This document shows, in pieces, positions 2-22,962 of a DNA stretch of 64,000 bases. The translations under genes were made by a program, and so were the position numbers. Source of the stretch: an uncultured Clostridia bacterium (lineage in GTDB: Bacteria > Bacillota > Clostridia > TANB77 > CAG-508); NCBI GenBank assembly GCA_944392945.1, contig CALXYJ010000001.1:186001-250000 (forward strand). The letters are read 5' to 3'. The notes below the pieces were generated by a model. That model was not told where the DNA came from and did not search any database. It saw nothing but the letters and a program-made list of their open reading frames with translations. Positions within the stretch are counted from its first letter, which is position 1; every line of letters starts with the position of its first letter.

Positions 2-3000
2 ATTTCAGTAAACGTTCCAGGAAATAATGGTAGTGCAACATTATCATTTAAAGTAACAGCAGATATATTACCAGAAGGAACAACAAGTCTTGAAGCTAAA
101 AATACAGCTATTATTGATGAAGAAGATAATACAACAGATACAACAGAAACAGTTGTAAATAAAGCATATGTTACTCTAACAATTAATAAAAATTGGGTAG
201 ATAATGATATTCAAGATGATCGTAGACCAGAGAAAATTACTTTCGTAGTTTTAGCAAATGGAGAAGAGACAAATAATAGAGCAGAAGTAGATACATCAGT
301 AACAGATGAACAAAGTTATACATTCGAGAATCTTCCAAAATATGATGAAAATGGAAATGTAATTAATTATTCTGCAAAAGAAGTTAATGCTGGAGAATTC
401 TATAAATCAGAAGTAGGAACACCAGTAGTAAATGACTTAGGAAATACAGAGGTAGAGATTACAAATACATTTAAATTGCCAGATGATAATTCAAAAAATG
501 TTATAGTAACAAAAGTATGGGAAGATAATAATGACGAAGCAGGAAAACGTCCAGAAAATGTAACATTAACAGTAACTGGAAATGGAAAATCACAAGATGC
601 AACATTAACAGAAGCAGACAAATTAGAAAATGATTCTAATACATGGCAAACAACAGTAACGATGGATAAATATAATAGTGATGGTCAAGAAATCACATAT
701 ACAGCAAGAGAAAATGTTGTACCAAATTTCTATACTCCAGAAGTAAATGGAACGACAGTAATAAATACATTTGCAGTACCAACAACAACTGTTGATGTAA
801 AAGTTAATAAACAATGGGTAGAAGATAATGAAATTCAAGCTTTACGTAGACCAGAACAAATTAAATTCACATTAACAGCTAATGGCAATACAGCAAAGGA
901 TGAAAACGGAAATGATATAACATATGTAATGAATGTTACTGGAAATAATCAAGAATACACATTTGAAGATTTACCAGAATATGATGAAAAAGCTGACATA
1001 ATTGATTATGATGTAATTGAAAGTGTAATTGATGGAGATGAACATAAGGATGATTTAAAATTCTATGAATCTACAAAAACAGAAAATGTGTTAAATAATA
1101 TTCAATTCACAAATACATTTAAATTACCAGAAAATAATTCAAAGAAAGTTACAGTAACAAAAAAATGGGTAGATAATAATGATGAAGCAGAAAAACGTCC
1201 AGAACAAGTTGTTGTTAATATAACAGGATATGATGTAGATGGTACAAATACAGGAATATCTGGTATTATAATTAATGAAACAAATAAAGTGGATGATAAT
1301 ACATGGGAAAAAGCAGAAATTAATCTACAACAATATAATCAAAATGGCCAAGAAATAGAGTATAATGTAACAGAAGAAAAAGTTGACTTCTATACAACAT
1401 CAATTAATGGAACTACTATAACAAATACATTTGGTGGATTTGAACAAGAAACAGTAAATATTCCTGTAACAAAAGTATGGGTAGACAATGATAATGTAAG
1501 AGGAAAACGTCCACAAAACATTGTATTCCAAGTTACTGGAAATAATGTAACAACAGAAACTACTCTTTCTGGAACAGGAAATACTTGGACTGGAAGTGTA
1601 GATGTTCCAAAATATGATGATTATGCAAACGAAATTGATTACTCTATAGATGAAGTTTTAACTTCTAAATTCTATACAAAATCAATAAATCAGGGAACTA
1701 GAACTATTACAAATACATTTACAGTTCCTGAAGAAGATGTAAATGTAACTGTTAACAAAACTTGGGAAGATAATGAGACTCAAGCTAAACGTAGACCAAA
1801 TTCAATAAGATTTGTATTAACAGAAAATGGAACAGAAACAGATACATATTATGATATGGAAATAAATGAAGAAACTAACGACTATACTTATACATTCAGT
1901 AACTTAGATAGATATGACTCAAATGGTAATGAAATAAAATATGGTGTTAATGAAAAAGAGATAAGTGATGGAGATTTAGATTTCTATACACATAATGAAA
2001 CTTCAAACACTGTAGACGAAGATGGAAATAGAACAATAGGAATTAAAAATACATTTACATTACCAAAAGATAATATTAAACCAATTACTATAACAAAAGA
2101 ATGGGTAGATGGTAATGATGTAGCAGGAAAACGTTCAGAAGGAAGCATTACAATACAATTAAATGGTGAAGATGTTGTAGTAAACGATAATGGAACAAAT
2201 ATATGGACAGCACAAGTAAATAAACCAACATATAATGAAAATGGTGAGAAAATAACATATTCAGTAGATGAAAAAGATGTACCAGAATTTTATGAAAAAA
2301 CAATTTCAGCAGATGGAATGAAGGTAACAAATACATTCAAATCACCAACGGATACAAAACCAATTACTATAGAAAAAGAATGGAATGATAATAATAATAT
2401 AAATCGTCCAACTGAGGTAGTATTTAATGTAATTGGAACAGCAAATAATAAAGAAGCATATAATGAATCATTTACAATAGAAAAGGATCAAAACTTAAAT
2501 AATTGGACTAAAACAATTACAGTACCTGTATATGATCAATTTGCTAATTTAATTACATATAGGGTAGAAGAAGCAAATGTTCCTACAGGATATATTGCAG
2601 AAGTAGATTCAACAGGTTTAAAAATAACAAATTCATTACCAAGTATAGATGTACAAAAAGACGTAATAGAAGTAAAACATAAAGATGGAAGCGTAACTAA
2701 TGTAAATGTTCCAAATTCTACAGAAATAGCAGTAGAAGAAGGAGATATTGTTAAATATCAAATAGTAGTTACAAATACTTCAGATATAACAATTCAAGAT
2801 TTAGTAGTTAGTGATAATACTCTAGCTGTAACTAAGAATCCAAATGGAGAGACAGATATTATATCTGAATTAGGAAGAATAGATAATTTAGTAGGTGGAG
2901 CATCACAAATATATATTGTATATCACAAAGTTACTCATGATGAAGCAAAAACAGCAGGAGTAAAAATTACTAATACAGTAACAGTAACAGGAAACTATAA

Positions 3001-4915
3001 TGATGATAAAGATACGATTACAAAAACAGATGATGCTACAGTTACAATAAAAGATGTAAATAATATTTCTGTTATAAAAGAGCAAAAAGTAAATGGAAAA
3101 GTAATACCAAACGGAACAGAGGTAAAACTTGGAACAACAATAAATTATACAATTACAGTTAAAAATGAAGGTAATACAACATTACATGATGTTGTAGTAA
3201 ATGATACTATATCTGGAATTGCTGGAGAATTAGTATTTAATAATCAATCAGGTATTACAGTTAGTGGTAATAAAAATGATGGTTATGTAATTACAATAGG
3301 AACATTAAATGCAGGAGAAACAAAGACAATAACAGCAAAATATACAGTTATAGAAGGAGATATTTCAGAAAGTGCAAAACAAATAGCAAATGTTGCAACT
3401 GTTAATGCAAAAACACCTGATGATAAACCTTTAACACCTCCATCAAGTTCAGTAGATGTAAATACTGAAGAAGGAGAACCTATAATAGATGTAACAAAAA
3501 CAAGTAAATTAATAGAGAAAAATGGAAAGACAACAGACGGTAAAGCAGAATATGGAGATATAATTGTATATACAATAACTGCAACTAACACAGGAATAAT
3601 ATCTGGAGATGTAACAATTACAGATAAAGTACCAACAGGCACAGAATTATATAGACAAGGAACAACAAACTTAAGTGCTGAAGAATTAGATTCTTTAGAA
3701 TCAGAAGAAGGTTTAACTAAAGTTCTAAATGTTCCAGGAAATAATGGAAAAGCAACAATTACATTTAGTGTAAAAGTAACAGCTAAACCAGGAGAAGATG
3801 TAAAAAATACAGCAACAGTAAATGATGGCGAAAATGAAACAGAAAAATCTGACAAAGGTTCTGATGTAGAAAAAACAGTAAAGGTAACGGCAAAATCACA
3901 AACTACAACTATTAAGAATAGCAATGTTGTAATTGTATTAGATACTTCAGGAAGTATGAATTATAAAATGACTGAAACTGTAACTATACCATGTCCAGGA
4001 CATAGGAGAGGAACACAACATGGTGACAGAGGTACAAAATGTTATCAAAATGAAGATGGAGAATGGGTTGTAGATGAAGTACAAGAAAAAGATGAAACTA
4101 GACTAGATGTTGCAAAAGATGTTATTCAAGGATTTATTGATTCTATGCAGTTTGCAGAAGATGGAAATGGATCTGCAGTATCAATAGTTACATTTAATGG
4201 ATCTGATAGAAACAATCACCCAGTATCTGGAACAGGATATTCAGAAACATTAAAAGTAAAATACAATAATTGGTGGGAAGAAGAAGACACTATAGCAAAT
4301 ACTGCGAGCGAAGCAAAATATTTGGCAGATACATCACTAGAAAATGTTACTGCTCATGATGGAACATGTATTTCAGGATCATTATTAAGAGCAAAACAAC
4401 AAATGGAATTATTAAAAGCAAATAATCCAAATAATAAAAATATAGTTATATTCGTAGGTGATGGAGAACCAGACGAAGATAAAGAAGAAAATAAAATAAC
4501 AGAATATGCAAACAATTTAAAAGCTATTGCTGATACTGTATATGCTATAGGATTTGAATCTGATATTTCAATTTTAAGAAATATAGCTTCACCAGGAAAA
4601 TATTATACAACAGATGATAATCTAGATTTATCAGATGTATTTACAGAAGTTGGATCAGACTTAGGAGATACAGAACCAGATTATATAACATCAAATAATG
4701 GAGAAATAACTTTAACAAATATAGATACAACAAAGGAAGTTACATTAAAAGTTAAAACTTCAACAGAGACAGACTTTACAACAACAGAGGCACTTGTAAG
4801 TCAAATATCTCAAATAAAACAAAGAACAGATGGAACTTATTATTTAGACGTATCAGAATTTGCAGCAGATGCAGAAATAGAAATTACTTATGTAACAGTT
4901 GCAACGTCTAACTAA
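2..4915 (+). CDS. Giant Cna_B-repeat / DUF11 / VWA surface protein, 5' end outside window
   Basis: The frame is open from base 2, so the gene is cut by the window edge; the ATG at 476 is internal. In order it shows the end of a DUF11-like domain, eight Cna_B-type repeats each opening with a K-x-W-x-(D/E)-(D/G)-N-like motif and mostly closing with ITNTF, three DUF11-like domains (near bases 2640, 3060 and 3480), and a C-terminal von Willebrand A domain. Lys, Glu and Asn of each Cna_B unit fit self-forming isopeptide bonds. The VWA domain has the metal-site residues DTSGSM (3941-3958), the DGT motif near 4361 and GDGEPD, plus a Cys-bounded insert (Cys codons at 3992 and 4040). The family is known for surface adhesins and pilus-tip proteins. 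No LPXTG motif or membrane anchor is present at the C-terminus, so attachment must lie upstream or be by other means. The adhesion role is inferred. Confidence 0.9.
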   Translation: MSVNVPGNNGSATLSFKVTADILPEGTTSLEAKNTAIIDEEDNTTDTTETVVNKAYVTLTINKNWVDNDIQDDRRPEKITFVVLANGEETNNRAEVDTSVTDEQSYTFENLPKYDENGNVINYSAKEVNAGEFYKSEVGTPVVNDLGNTEVEITNTFKLPDDNSKNVIVTKVWEDNNDEAGKRPENVTLTVTGNGKSQDATLTEADKLENDSNTWQTTVTMDKYNSDGQEITYTARENVVPNFYTPEVNGTTVINTFAVPTTTVDVKVNKQWVEDNEIQALRRPEQIKFTLTANGNTAKDENGNDITYVMNVTGNNQEYTFEDLPEYDEKADIIDYDVIESVIDGDEHKDDLKFYESTKTENVLNNIQFTNTFKLPENNSKKVTVTKKWVDNNDEAEKRPEQVVVNITGYDVDGTNTGISGIIINETNKVDDNTWEKAEINLQQYNQNGQEIEYNVTEEKVDFYTTSINGTTITNTFGGFEQETVNIPVTKVWVDNDNVRGKRPQNIVFQVTGNNVTTETTLSGTGNTWTGSVDVPKYDDYANEIDYSIDEVLTSKFYTKSINQGTRTITNTFTVPEEDVNVTVNKTWEDNETQAKRRPNSIRFVLTENGTETDTYYDMEINEETNDYTYTFSNLDRYDSNGNEIKYGVNEKEISDGDLDFYTHNETSNTVDEDGNRTIGIKNTFTLPKDNIKPITITKEWVDGNDVAGKRSEGSITIQLNGEDVVVNDNGTNIWTAQVNKPTYNENGEKITYSVDEKDVPEFYEKTISADGMKVTNTFKSPTDTKPITIEKEWNDNNNINRPTEVVFNVIGTANNKEAYNESFTIEKDQNLNNWTKTITVPVYDQFANLITYRVEEANVPTGYIAEVDSTGLKITNSLPSIDVQKDVIEVKHKDGSVTNVNVPNSTEIAVEEGDIVKYQIVVTNTSDITIQDLVVSDNTLAVTKNPNGETDIISELGRIDNLVGGASQIYIVYHKVTHDEAKTAGVKITNTVTVTGNYNDDKDTITKTDDATVTIKDVNNISVIKEQKVNGKVIPNGTEVKLGTTINYTITVKNEGNTTLHDVVVNDTISGIAGELVFNNQSGITVSGNKNDGYVITIGTLNAGETKTITAKYTVIEGDISESAKQIANVATVNAKTPDDKPLTPPSSSVDVNTEEGEPIIDVTKTSKLIEKNGKTTDGKAEYGDIIVYTITATNTGIISGDVTITDKVPTGTELYRQGTTNLSAEELDSLESEEGLTKVLNVPGNNGKATITFSVKVTAKPGEDVKNTATVNDGENETEKSDKGSDVEKTVKVTAKSQTTTIKNSNVVIVLDTSGSMNYKMTETVTIPCPGHRRGTQHGDRGTKCYQNEDGEWVVDEVQEKDETRLDVAKDVIQGFIDSMQFAEDGNGSAVSIVTFNGSDRNNHPVSGTGYSETLKVKYNNWWEEEDTIANTASEAKYLADTSLENVTAHDGTCISGSLLRAKQQMELLKANNPNNKNIVIFVGDGEPDEDKEENKITEYANNLKAIADTVYAIGFESDISILRNIASPGKYYTTDDNLDLSDVFTEVGSDLGDTEPDYITSNNGEITLTNIDTTKEVTLKVKTSTETDFTTTEALVSQISQIKQRTDGTYYLDVSEFAADAEIEITYVTVATSN

Positions 4916-11528: not shown

Positions 11529-11555
11529 GAACTTTAGGGACGTTCCTTAAAGTTC
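11529..11555. repeat. 27-base palindromic repeat, copy 1
   Basis: An imperfect palindrome with arms GAACTTTA and TAAAGTTC around GGGACGTTCCT. An identical copy lies at 14280-14306, and an inverted near-copy (25 of 27 identical) at 15137-15163. No T run follows, so it is not a standard terminator. It resembles REP-type extragenic palindromes. Confidence 0.85.
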
Positions 11556-11594: not shown

Positions 11595-12968
11595 ATGAAT
11601 TTTATTAATCTAAGAGAAGAATATCCAAATTTCTCTTATAACTGGTATAAAATAGATGAATATGAAAATGAATATAAAATAAGCTATGAATTTGAAATTA
11701 CAGGACTTTCAAAATTTAATCCGACTTGGATAATTCCTAAAATTAACTTGGCACAAGGGAGCATTAAAAAACAGCCAAATAAAGAATTATTGGAAAATAT
11801 GGTGTTTAATTTAGGAATGGTAGAGCTTGTGAGCTATTGGAAAATAACTTGTTCACCAAATGTAAATATAAAAAATATATATTTAAGTTCTAAACAAATT
11901 GATTGGTGGAAAAAATTGTATTTTTATGGACTTGGAGAGTTTTTCTATAAAAATGGAATAAAAACAAATATAGAAAAATTTATGAATATAACTACTGGAT
12001 CTACAAAATTACAAAAAATAAATGTAAATGAAGAATTCACAGGAGCATTAGTTCCAATTGGTGGAGGGAAGGATTCAATAGTTACATTAGATATAATTAA
12101 AGATGATTTTAAAGACAATATGTGCTATGTAATAAATCCAAGAGGAGCGACAGAAGAAACAGTAGAAATGGCTGGATATAAAGATAATCAAAAATGTTAT
12201 GTAAAAAGAACTTTAGATAAAAATATGTTAGAGCTTAATAAAAAAGGTTTTTTAAATGGGCATACACCATTTTCATCTATTGTAGCTTTTTCTGCAATTA
12301 TAGTTGCATATTTAAATAATAAAAAATACATAGTATTATCTAATGAAGCAAGTGCAAATGAATCTACAATATATGAAGAAGAAGTTAACCATCAATATTC
12401 AAAAAGTTATGAGTTTGAAAAAGATTTTAATGAATATGTACAAGAATATATATTAGATAATATACATTATTTTAGTTTATTAAGACCAATAAGTGAATAT
12501 CAAATAGCAAAGCATTTTGCAAAATTACCTAAATTTTATAATATTTTTAAAAGTTGTAATGTAGGAAGTAAAGAAAATAAATGGTGTGCAAATTGCCCCA
12601 AATGCTTATTTGTATACATAGTTTTGTCTCCATTTATATCAAAAAAGGATTTAATAAATATTTTTGGAGAAGATTTATTAAATAAACAAAACTTAAAAGG
12701 AACAATGGAAATGCTTTCTGGATTGCAGAAGAACAAACCTTTTGAATGTGTTGGTTCAAGAGATGAGGTAAATACAGCAATTTGTGAAACTATTAAAAAA
12801 TATGAAAATTCAAAAGAAGAACTTCCAGCTTTACTCAAATATTATAAAACAACTAAAAAATATGAAGAATATAAGAATAAAGAGAATGCTTATAATGTTT
12901 TTTATAATAAAGATAATAATGTTCCAAAACACTATATGGATATGTTAAAGAAGAGTGAAATATTATGA
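11595..12968 (+). CDS. murL: UDP-N-acetylmuramoyl-L-alanyl-L-glutamate epimerase (MurL)
   Basis: MurL inverts the terminal L-Glu of UDP-MurNAc-L-Ala-L-Glu to D-Glu, with ATP, replacing the glutamate racemase route. The 457-residue protein shows the PP-loop motif VPIGGGKDSIVTLD near residue 160, EASANESTIYEEEVNHQYS, and a Cys pair in WCANCPKCLF, all typical of MurL. It overlaps murD2 by four bases, and this pairing is the strongest support, because MurD2 supplies its substrate. The start at 11595 follows GAAGGAG; an earlier ATG at 11568 would add nine residues without a ribosome site. The pair has been characterised in Xanthomonas; activity here is inferred. Confidence 0.9.
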   Translation: MNFINLREEYPNFSYNWYKIDEYENEYKISYEFEITGLSKFNPTWIIPKINLAQGSIKKQPNKELLENMVFNLGMVELVSYWKITCSPNVNIKNIYLSSKQIDWWKKLYFYGLGEFFYKNGIKTNIEKFMNITTGSTKLQKINVNEEFTGALVPIGGGKDSIVTLDIIKDDFKDNMCYVINPRGATEETVEMAGYKDNQKCYVKRTLDKNMLELNKKGFLNGHTPFSSIVAFSAIIVAYLNNKKYIVLSNEASANESTIYEEEVNHQYSKSYEFEKDFNEYVQEYILDNIHYFSLLRPISEYQIAKHFAKLPKFYNIFKSCNVGSKENKWCANCPKCLFVYIVLSPFISKKDLINIFGEDLLNKQNLKGTMEMLSGLQKNKPFECVGSRDEVNTAICETIKKYENSKEELPALLKYYKTTKKYEEYKNKENAYNVFYNKDNNVPKHYMDMLKKSEIL

Positions 12969-14281
12969 AAGAAAAAATATTAAATGAGTTTAAGAAGGAT
13001 TTAGAAAATAAGAAAATAGCGATTTGGGGAATGGGATCAGAAGGAATCTCTACAGTTCAATTTATTCAAAATAATAATATAAAATGCAAAGAACTAGCTA
13101 TATTAGAGCAACGAGAAATCAAAGTTAATGGAATAAAGAGATTAAATAAACCAGAGGAATTAAATGAATATGATTTAATATTTAAAAGTCCTGGAATTGT
13201 AACTAATGAAGAGATAATAGATAAAGATAAACTAACATCACAAACAGAAGAATTTTTAAAAATTTTGTCAAAACAAATAATAGGAATCACTGGAACTAAG
13301 GGAAAAAGCACAACTTCCAGTCTTATTTATACTATATTAAAAAAATATTATCCTAACACAGTATTAGTAGGAAATATTGGTATTCCATGTTTTAATGCAA
13401 TTAATGAAATTGACGAAAATACAAATATTGTTTTTGAACTTAGTTGTCATCAATTAGAATTTGTAAAATATTCACCACATATTGCAGTGATTCTAAATTT
13501 ATATCCAGATCATCTAGATCATTATAAGAATTTTGATAATTATATAAAAGCAAAATTTAATATTAATAAATATCAAAATGATAATGATATATTTATTTAT
13601 GGGGAAAATTGTAGGCCATATAAAGCATATATAAATACCAATGTTAAAAATAATATATGTATTAATGATTATATAAAAGAAAGAACTATAACAATAAATA
13701 ATAATAGTACGCAAATTTTAGAAAATGAAACTAATTTAGTCGGTGATCATAATTTTTTTGATATTGCTGTATCATTCTATATTTGTAATAAAATATATAA
13801 AATATCAAATGATGATTTTAAAAGAGTATTAAAAGAATTTAAAGGATTAGCTCATAGATTGGAATATGTTACAACGAAGAATGATGTATCATATTATGAT
13901 GACTCAATTTCTACAATTGGAGAGACAACAATAGCAGGAATAAAAGCTCTAAAAAAAGTAAACACTTTAATTTTGGGTGGTATGGATAGAAAGATAGATT
14001 ATTCTAATTTAGAAGATTTTATATTAAGCAATAAAGAATTGGAAAATATTATTTTAATGCCAGATACTGGAACAAGAATTTACAATGAAATGAAAATAAA
14101 AAATATTAATAAAAAGTGTTATATAGTAAAAGATATGGAAGAGGCAGTGAAAACAGCTAAAAAGGTAACCAAACCACATACAATTTGTTTACTCTCTCCA
14201 GCTGCTGCAAGCTATGGATTCTTCAAGAACTTTGAAGAAAGAGGCAAAAAATTTAAAGAATTAGTAAATTCCGAACTTTGA
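12965..14281 (+). CDS. murD2: UDP-N-acetylmuramoyl-L-alanine--L-glutamate ligase (MurD2)
   Basis: This Mur ligase adds glutamate to UDP-MurNAc-L-Ala; the MurD2 branch uses L-Glu and works with MurL. The 438-residue protein shows the N-terminal nucleotide fold (IAIWGMGSEGISTVQ), the ATP loop GITGTKGKSTT, the HLDHYKNFDNYIKAK motif with the carbamylated-Lys region, YYDDSISTIGETTIAG (instead of the NDSKATN pattern of standard MurD), LGGMDRKIDY and LLSPAAASYGFFKNFEERG. The DDSIST variant favours MurD2 over MurD. The stop codon (14279-14281) overlaps the second 27-base palindrome. No standard murD or murI is seen in this window. Confidence 0.88.
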   Translation: MKEKILNEFKKDLENKKIAIWGMGSEGISTVQFIQNNNIKCKELAILEQREIKVNGIKRLNKPEELNEYDLIFKSPGIVTNEEIIDKDKLTSQTEEFLKILSKQIIGITGTKGKSTTSSLIYTILKKYYPNTVLVGNIGIPCFNAINEIDENTNIVFELSCHQLEFVKYSPHIAVILNLYPDHLDHYKNFDNYIKAKFNINKYQNDNDIFIYGENCRPYKAYINTNVKNNICINDYIKERTITINNNSTQILENETNLVGDHNFFDIAVSFYICNKIYKISNDDFKRVLKEFKGLAHRLEYVTTKNDVSYYDDSISTIGETTIAGIKALKKVNTLILGGMDRKIDYSNLEDFILSNKELENIILMPDTGTRIYNEMKIKNINKKCYIVKDMEEAVKTAKKVTKPHTICLLSPAAASYGFFKNFEERGKKFKELVNSEL

Positions 14282-14306
14282 ACTTTAGGGACGTTCCTTA
14301 AAGTTC
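14280..14306. repeat. 27-base palindromic repeat, copy 2
   Basis: Identical in sequence and orientation to copy 1 at 11529-11555. It begins inside the murD2 stop codon, so copies 1 and 2 frame the murL-murD2 pair closely. Confidence 0.85.
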
Positions 14307-14358
14307 AAAATTGTTTCTGAAGTTTTAGAAAATTCACATAGAATTTACAAAACACATA

Positions 14359-15136: not shown

Positions 15137-15163
15137 GAACTTTAAGTAACGTTCCTAAAGTTC
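15137..15163. repeat. 27-base palindromic repeat, copy 3 (inverted)
   Basis: Arms GAACTTTA and TAAAGTTC as in copies 1 and 2, but the core matches their reverse complement with two differences. It lies between the TetR gene and the exporter genes. Confidence 0.8.
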
Positions 15164-21467: not shown

Positions 21468-22241
21468 ATGAAAAATAAAAGAATAATTATTCAAGAATAC
21501 GAACCAAAGAAAATATATAAAAAGTATAAATCTTTTATATATAGAAATACTGAATTTATATATAATGGAGACAATGCAGAAATAAAAGAAATTGTAAAAA
21601 TATTAAACATTAAGTCAAAGATGAAAAGATTAGAATATATTTTTGATGAATCTTGTAAAGAGATAGATCAAAAGTTTGCAGGAAAAAATATATGTGATTT
21701 TAAGTGTAATCAGTGTATTGTACAAAGAAAAAACAATTCTAAAGAAGTAAATGGTTGTTGTAGAGTATGCAGATTTCAAGGAGAAAATGGATGTAAATCT
21801 AGCAATTTGCCATGTAAACTTTTTTTCTGCCCTGAAATACAAAAAAATTATGAAATAATAAAATTAAAAGATTTAAGATTAACAAAATTACTTACAAAAA
21901 GGCAAAGATTAATTTTAAAATTTGACTTATTTTCTTCTAGAGAAGAAATTTTAATGGATTTATATATAGGTATTGCGACGATAGCTGCTTTTAGAGAATT
22001 ATATTCATTAATAAAGAATTCGTTATTTTTAATTTTTAAAAATAAATATAATAAAAAATATAATTTTAAAATTAAGTATTTAGTTATAATATTAACTTTA
22101 GCTTTATTGGCTATGTTTGCTGTTTATCACCCAATAATGCCAATCATTATCATTGGTGTGGGGATATTAGAAGATTTTTTTATAAAAATAATTAAAATAA
22201 AAAATAGGGGGATTTATAATGAAAAATTCAAAGAATATTAA
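21468..22241 (+). CDS. Cys-rich membrane protein of unknown function
   Basis: The 257-residue protein has a cluster of Cys in its middle (CDFKCNQC, CCRVCRFQGENGC, LPCKLFFC, residues about 78-123), enough for two or more zinc or iron-sulfur sites. A weak hydrophobic stretch near residue 165 and a clear C-terminal one (residues about 200-238, YLVIILTLALLAMF and PIIIIGVGILEDF) follow. The soluble N-terminus is basic. I do not recognise the family. Its last 23 bases overlap the next gene, which suggests coupled translation with the SpaA-like protein. Confidence 0.65.
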   Translation: MKNKRIIIQEYEPKKIYKKYKSFIYRNTEFIYNGDNAEIKEIVKILNIKSKMKRLEYIFDESCKEIDQKFAGKNICDFKCNQCIVQRKNNSKEVNGCCRVCRFQGENGCKSSNLPCKLFFCPEIQKNYEIIKLKDLRLTKLLTKRQRLILKFDLFSSREEILMDLYIGIATIAAFRELYSLIKNSLFLIFKNKYNKKYNFKIKYLVIILTLALLAMFAVYHPIMPIIIIGVGILEDFFIKIIKIKNRGIYNEKFKEY

Positions 22242-22962
22242 AATAATAATAAGTATAATAATTTTGATAATAATTGCAATTGCAGTAGTTTTTATATTAA
22301 AAAATATTTCAAATAATAATAGTACAAATGAAACCAATTCCGTAAATGAAAACGCAATAAATGAAAACATTATTAACGAAGAAGTTATAAATATAGAAAG
22401 TACAACGGCAGATTATGGAGCTGCTAATGTATATGCTAAGGATGAAAATGGAGATATAATAGCAGGGGCAAAATTTAGTTTAGTAAAAAAAGAAACAGGA
22501 GAGGTAATTACAAAAGAAGATGTGGAATCTGGTTTAGATGGTAAGGTTAGATTTGTAAATGTTCCTGTTGGTGAATACGAAATTATAGCTAAAGAAGCTC
22601 CTAAGGGATACGAAATACAAGATGAAAAAATAGATTTAGTTATAAATAAAGCTCAAGATACAAATGCAGACTTAATATTTAATAGAGTTAGAGCAACAAT
22701 AGTTGTAGAAACAAAAGATGAGGAAGAAAACTTTATTCAAGGTGCTAAGTTCGTTTTATATAATGATGAAGGAGAAGATATTCAACATATAACATCTGAT
22801 TCAGAAGGATATTGTGGTGTAAGAGATCTACCACTTGGAAAATATTATATAGAAGTAGAATCTCTACCAGAAGGTTATACAACTAACATGGATAGAACAG
22901 AAATAAATTTAGAAAATGAAGATCAGGTGCTTTTATTTAAAGTTACATTAAATAAGCAATAA
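22219..22962 (+). CDS. Membrane-anchored protein with two SpaA/Cna_B-like domains
   Basis: The 247-residue protein has an N-terminal membrane segment (residues about 8-28), an Asn/Glu-rich linker, and two prealbumin-like (SpaA, Cna_B type) domains. The first spans about residues 70-155 (GAKFSLVKKETGEV ... VPVGEYEIIAKEAPKGYE) and the second about 160-240 (QGAKFVLYNDEGEDI ... LPLGKYYIEVESLPEGY). The AP-x-GY endings and the GAKF Lys are typical of pilin modules that form isopeptide bonds. There is no LPXTG, so the N-terminal segment is the anchor. AGGGGG precedes the start. A role in the cell surface is inferred. Confidence 0.8.
   Translation: MKNSKNIKIIISIIILIIIAIAVVFILKNISNNNSTNETNSVNENAINENIINEEVINIESTTADYGAANVYAKDENGDIIAGAKFSLVKKETGEVITKEDVESGLDGKVRFVNVPVGEYEIIAKEAPKGYEIQDEKIDLVINKAQDTNADLIFNRVRATIVVETKDEEENFIQGAKFVLYNDEGEDIQHITSDSEGYCGVRDLPLGKYYIEVESLPEGYTTNMDRTEINLENEDQVLLFKVTLNKQ

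Follow-up and report, generated by a model that had tools for sequence, protein, structure and literature searches.

The DNA analyzed here, a 64,000-nucleotide stretch from an uncultured Clostridia bacterium (assembly GCA_944392945.1, contig CALXYJ010000001.1, positions 186,001 to 250,000; hereafter the window), carries two overlapping genes, murL and murD2, which very probably provide the MurD2-MurL route to D-glutamate (D-Glu) in peptidoglycan and have replaced the glutamate racemase MurI in this genus. In this route, L-Glu would be attached to the precursor first and then be flipped to the D-form. The pathway itself is already known: for the Xanthomonas enzymes, both reactions, the ATP need, the AMP product, and the one-way conversion from L to D have been described (PMC8788868, PMC5808125), and the window pair is a further case of a route that is widespread in Clostridia. 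The initial annotation had assigned the pair to this route, and the MurL motifs, the clade membership of MurD2, and the absence of MurI support that assignment at the sequence level. For the window proteins, we infer both activities, adenylation chemistry at a PP-loop site, and strict use of L-Glu by MurD2.

Loss of MurI in genomes that encode MurL

The window genome (1.75 Mb, 99.6% complete, 5.1% contamination) gave no match to the Asp/Glu racemase family PF01177, to the D-amino-acid aminotransferase (Dat) model TIGR01121, or, even at an E value of 10, to the MurI model TIGR00067; the same searches were positive in control genomes. It does encode MurC, MurF, Ddl, MraY, and two MurE-type ligases (L006:937-2493 and L007:1375-2934, on other contigs, both above an NCBIfam cutoff), so that a wall containing D-Glu is to be expected. 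One of these MurE-type ligases has the DNPR motif of meso-diaminopimelate ligases and adjoins mraY; the other has DQVR instead and adjoins folC. When murI and a standard murD were sought across the genome, no murI was found, so that a complete murI-murD pair is lacking, while a second MurD is present.

Among 57 relatives, MurI scored above the cutoff in none of the 21 genomes with a full-length MurL, compared with 26 of the 36 others (Fisher, 2.4e-8), and in a class-wide sample of 293 genomes it did so in 0 of 11 with MurL, compared with 259 of 282 without (Fisher, 1e-11), both Fisher values being descriptive because the counted species are related and their independence is overstated. The 11 MurL-encoding class genomes cover ten genera and seven families. 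Within the genus of the window genome, 11 species have MurL and lack MurI, and three have MurI and lack MurL. A weak MurI match in G023 proved to be an aspartate-racemase-like protein (IGIIGGMSYESS) and not MurI.

The original murI locus can be followed within the genus. In the MurI-encoding congener G005, murI and a deacetylase gene lie between SSB-like and ECN-like genes (named by inspection). All eight MurL-encoding congeners that were inspected, the window genome (G000:C15, L222) among them, retain these two neighbors, with only 448 to 472 bp between them. No MurI was found by tblastn of this shortened gap in the eight congeners, and deacetylase-matching fragments remain in the gap of three. 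Since murI is missing between retained neighbors, its replacement is evidenced directly and is not a matter of a failed search. The earlier proposal that the pair replaces glutamate racemase is thus well supported by the lack of a MurI homologue, the loss at the locus, and the mutual exclusion of MurL and MurI. No vacant murL site was evident in the MurI-encoding congeners, whose tyrS neighborhood differs. In one of the three MurI-encoding species of the genus (G007, without MurL), murI (L230:3837-4650) is split into two open reading frames by a stop, through either gene decay or a sequencing error.

The MurL-linked ligase groups with MurD2

All 89 MurL-linked MurDs formed one clade in the tree, apart from the clostridial-type MurD1, and in a 47-row tree the linked MurDs and Xanthomonas MurD2 fell on one side of a branch with support of 100/98. 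For comparison, we used the murL-murD pair of X. sacchari, found on a plasmid record (NZ_CP010410). Its MurD2 has Glu, Arg, Pro, and Phe at E. coli positions 182, 348, 414, and 416, which matches the published X. oryzae MurD2 and validates the numbering. Arg348 was found in 89 of 89 linked MurDs from Firmicutes and Bacteroidota, as opposed to Lys348 in 35 of 35 unlinked ones, and Glu182 occurred in 70 of the 89 linked MurDs and in no unlinked MurD. Arg348 alone is not proof, because the MurD of Streptococcus mutans and three MurDs of family f2 carry it as well. Residue 319 was dropped as a chirality marker, since Ile or Ala is also present in unlinked clostridial MurD1 and the position is not diagnostic alone.

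The window pair resembles MurD2-MurL of X. oryzae (XOO_1320/XOO_1319) and its relatives, with X. sacchari taken for comparison, in the overlapping murL-murD2 order, in a genome without MurI, in the MurL motifs GGGKDS, NHQxSK, SCN, and CxxCxxC, and in the clade, Arg348, and Ile319 of MurD2. In contrast, the window MurL is about 27% identical to that of X. sacchari, the window MurD2 has Asp182, Ala414, and Tyr416 where the X. sacchari protein has Glu, Pro, and Phe, and the window genome keeps a second MurD. Hence, where the initial annotation saw the marks of the Xanthomonas route, the MurL motifs and the MurD2 clade agree, whereas one of the two published specificity residues is not conserved. 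In the canonical MurI-MurD route, which MurD1 of the window genome represents by type, chirality is set before ligation by MurI, the enzyme that this genome lacks.

MurL is predicted to adopt a QueC/QatC-like fold

The AlphaFold2 (AF2) model of the window MurL (pLDDT 92, pTM 0.91; 39-sequence alignment) matched QatC with a Z score of 18.0 over 317 to 324 residues and QueC with Z scores of 13.2 and 12.5; other PP-loop enzymes followed at about 8. Foldseek assigned QatC a probability of 0.98 to 0.99 and returned no E value below 0.001; its weak matches to dehydrogenases were set aside, and the ranking by VIA Z score was preferred. A GGGKDS P-loop and four cysteines are invariant in 39 MurL homologues and present in Xanthomonas MurL, and 54 of the 69 columns invariant in 39 Firmicute and Bacteroidota MurLs are identical in X. 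sacchari MurL. The model, a confident one, points to a QueC-like PP-loop ATPase domain with a predicted Cys4 zinc-type site.

The likeness to QatC of the qatABCD anti-phage defense and to QueC, the 7-cyano-7-deazaguanine synthase, lies in the predicted fold, the PP-loop, and the four-cysteine zinc-type motif, spaced C(x)9CxxCxxC in MurL and C(x)8CxxCxxC in QueC; the four cysteines of QatC bind zinc. Both differ from MurL in sequence (about 9 to 17% identity), in having SGGxDS instead of GGGKDS, and in gene context and substrate, and the N-terminal region of MurL is absent from QueC. MurL thus probably works like QueC, yet it is not classified within the QueC family: the Pfam gathering threshold of PF06508 (QueC) was not reached, with no match listed for the window MurL and weak matches in 5 of 39 MurL homologues (best E value, 0.01). 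A search by sequence for a solved MurL structure found none, and two open-access papers of 2026 on the QueC family make no mention of epimerases or peptidoglycan.

QueC activates a carboxylate. The PP-loop fold, the P-loop, and the invariant cysteines of MurL fit an ATP-to-AMP activation of the alpha-carboxylate. Probably, MurL uses ATP to activate the alpha-carboxylate of the attached L-Glu at a QueC/QatC-like PP-loop site, giving an acyl-adenylate and releasing pyrophosphate, after which the adenylate would undergo proton exchange and hydrolysis. MurL has been described as a protein with no known domains that uses ATP, releases AMP, and acts one way (PMC8788868, PMC5808125).

Distribution and inheritance of the cassette

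A scan of GTDB genomes yielded at least 571 stretches encoding MurL relatives, the best 80 of which came mostly from Clostridia, and also from Erysipelotrichia-type Bacilli and in some cases from Bacteroidota. Published carriers of the MurL route are proteobacteria and rare actinobacteria, with distant orthologues elsewhere (PMC8788868, PMC5808125). A Xanthomonas-type route in this Firmicute-like genome, as first noted, is supported, but among Firmicutes such a route is no rarity. At 90 of 101 MurL loci, a MurD gene follows immediately downstream on the same strand, and 69 of these pairs overlap, 36 of them by exactly four bases, so that the murL-murD arrangement is not due to chance. The pairwise identities of MurL correlate with those of MurD2 (r = 0.91), as would be expected of a co-inherited pair, although the common ancestry of the organisms contributes as well. 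In the congener G002, MurL and MurD2 share only about 45% identity with those of the window; the cassette sits at another genomic place and in another part of the tree, beside other Clostridia. The simplest reading is that it represents a second, independent acquisition.

A virus-borne cassette found no support, as the viral_contigs scan gave no relative and only a single unannotated "phage" record from fecal samples turned up. A MurL-like gene annotated as hypothetical is carried by Pseudonocardia alni plasmid pPaSha1 (L238:3339-4739), which is typed as mobilizable; it has no adjacent murD.

Retained MurD1, Asp182, and alternative explanations

Several observations weigh against assigning the pair to the MurD2-MurL route, in addition to the relatedness of the species counted above. 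Neither MurL nor MurI was found in 10 of the 57 relatives, so that a missing MurI is by itself poor evidence; there must be further sources of D-Glu or gaps in the assemblies. The Xanthomonas and E. coli MurDs sit on long branches in the MurD tree. Profile naming of the window ligase gives a generic MurD only (299.5 bits against the MurD equivalog TIGR01087; cutoff, 211.95). The window MurL, which has no Pfam match at an E value of 0.001, has NCBIfam NF041275 as its sole match (260.8 bits; E value, 1.7e-77; profile positions 36 to 408 of 447) and falls short of the curated cutoff of 700 bits. This model is an equivalog for MurL of Xanthomonadales with an order-specific cutoff, which likewise was not reached in any of the 57 relatives or the 293 class genomes; the shortfall rules out the NCBI name, a narrow one at order level, but leaves the homology to MurL untouched. 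Finally, an intact MurD1 persists beside MurD2, and MurD2 itself may be relaxed in specificity, as taken up below.

MurD1 (G000:C5:19831-21168, 399 bits) is not foreign contamination, since it groups with MurD1 of congeners in the tree. It is under purifying selection in the window genome and several MurL-encoding relatives; its dN/dS of 0.05 to 0.19 in MurL-encoding congeners is similar to that of MurD2 and to that in MurI-encoding congeners. This selection, together with the relatives that lack both MurL and MurI, lends some weight to a mixed route, which is compatible with the MurD2-MurL route: the cassette would make the bulk of the precursor, while MurD1 would ligate D-Glu that is taken up or that arises from the side activity of another enzyme, for instance a glutamate-racemizing DapF, and the cell would depend on the cassette only under a shortage of D-Glu. 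Chlamydia is known to have a bifunctional DapF/glutamate racemase (PMC5885031). We consider such a division of labor possible, if tentative. In several MurL-encoding genomes MurD1 was not found, and no MurD besides the linked one was found in eight congeners or order-mates (G001, G002, G008, G009, G023, G040, G048, and G052), which argues that MurD1 is dispensable with the cassette, unless assembly gaps account for its absence. MurD1 and the second MurE might also make a nucleotide peptide of their own. Judged by sequence, MurD1 may draw on scavenged D-Glu, may take L-Glu as a partner of MurL, or may function in another polymer.

In family f3 of the same order (G046 L104, G042 L105, and G038 L108), MurL lacks an adjacent MurD and MurI is absent; the only MurD found in these three genomes belongs to the unlinked type and carries Lys348 and Asn317. 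It is a rather doubtful, though not negligible, idea that MurL can pair with a canonical-type MurD, that the f3 MurD1 gained L-Glu use independently, and that the two-step route has arisen with two different ligases.

Asp182 in the window MurD2 is the weakest link in the assignment. Because the corresponding Glu-to-Asp exchange, E197D, altered the specificity of X. oryzae MurD2 (PMC8788868), the window enzyme may be relaxed. It might then accept both enantiomers or mainly D-Glu, leaving MurL merely to repair the L-form. In favor of this, E. coli has Asp at the position, as do 8 of 10 congeners of the window cassette clade; against it, G009 and G013 of that clade keep Glu182. This explanation is unlikely, given that Arg348 and Ile319 match Xanthomonas MurD2 and that the searches for MurI, Asp/Glu racemases, and Dat uncovered no D-Glu source in the window genome. 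That the pair serves another nucleotide peptide or polymer, with D-Glu for the main wall coming from an unrecognized racemase, is conceivable given two MurD and two MurE paralogues, but highly improbable in view of the MurL/MurI exclusion, the disappearance of murI between its retained neighbors, and the genomes in which no MurD other than the linked one was found.

The gene pair and its surroundings

On rechecking, the start and end of both reading frames in the initial annotation proved exact, and the four-base overlap was confirmed (Table 1). The murL gene starts with ATG, with GGAAGGAGAAAAAAG just upstream and a ribosome-binding site, GGAAGGAG, ahead of it. The pair is preceded by tyrS and followed by genes for a TetR regulator and an ABC exporter; no RNA elements or riboswitches were found near it.

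Table 1. Features of the murL-murD2 region (window coordinates)
Feature	Coordinates	Strand	Remarks
murL, MurL homologue, 457 aa	11595..12968	+	QueC/QatC-like PP-loop fold (predicted); P-loop GGGKDS, residues 156-161; C321-x9-C331-x2-C334-x2-C337
murD2, MurD-like ligase, 438 aa	12965..14281	+	E. coli positions: R348, I319, D182, Y416
murL/murD2 start/stop overlap, ATGA	12965..12968	+	Translational coupling inferred
Terminator-like palindrome 3' of murD2, 15 pairs	14277..14309	+	Doubles as copy of genome-wide 27-nt repeat
Dispersed palindrome, identical copy, between tyrS and murL	11529..11555	+	

The 27-nt palindrome (GAACTTTAGGGACGTTCCTTAAAGTTC) occurs in the window at 11529-11555, 14280-14306, and 15137-15163, and the genome holds 56 copies (up to 3 mismatches in the 19-nt core) against 0 for a reversed control; it is a repetitive extragenic palindrome (REP)-like intergenic family, and its core is altered in the copies of congeners (GGGACGGTCC). 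Movement of the cassette by these flanking repeats was rejected, as the palindromes are dispersed genome-wide and the gene order tyrS-murL-murD2-TetR is kept in congeners. Elsewhere in the window are a large surface-protein-like open reading frame with seven Cna_B stretches (476-4915) and a SpaA-type prealbumin-fold protein (22219-22962).

Implications

Almost all stem peptides contain D-Glu, and MurI is regarded as an essential target for drugs. The main interest of the present case lies in the breadth of the cassette, its replacement of MurI within one genus, the fold of MurL, and the retained MurD1. The cassette extends well beyond its published carriers, to Clostridia, Bacteroidota, and Erysipelotrichia-type Bacilli, many of them from the gut, and the fold assignment gives a concrete candidate mechanism for a protein said to have no known domains. 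Within this one genus, a cassette would have taken over the whole D-Glu step, apparently at least twice, and sister species on either route form a natural experiment. Species that encode MurL would be expected to escape racemase inhibitors but to be hit by inhibitors of MurL or MurD2.
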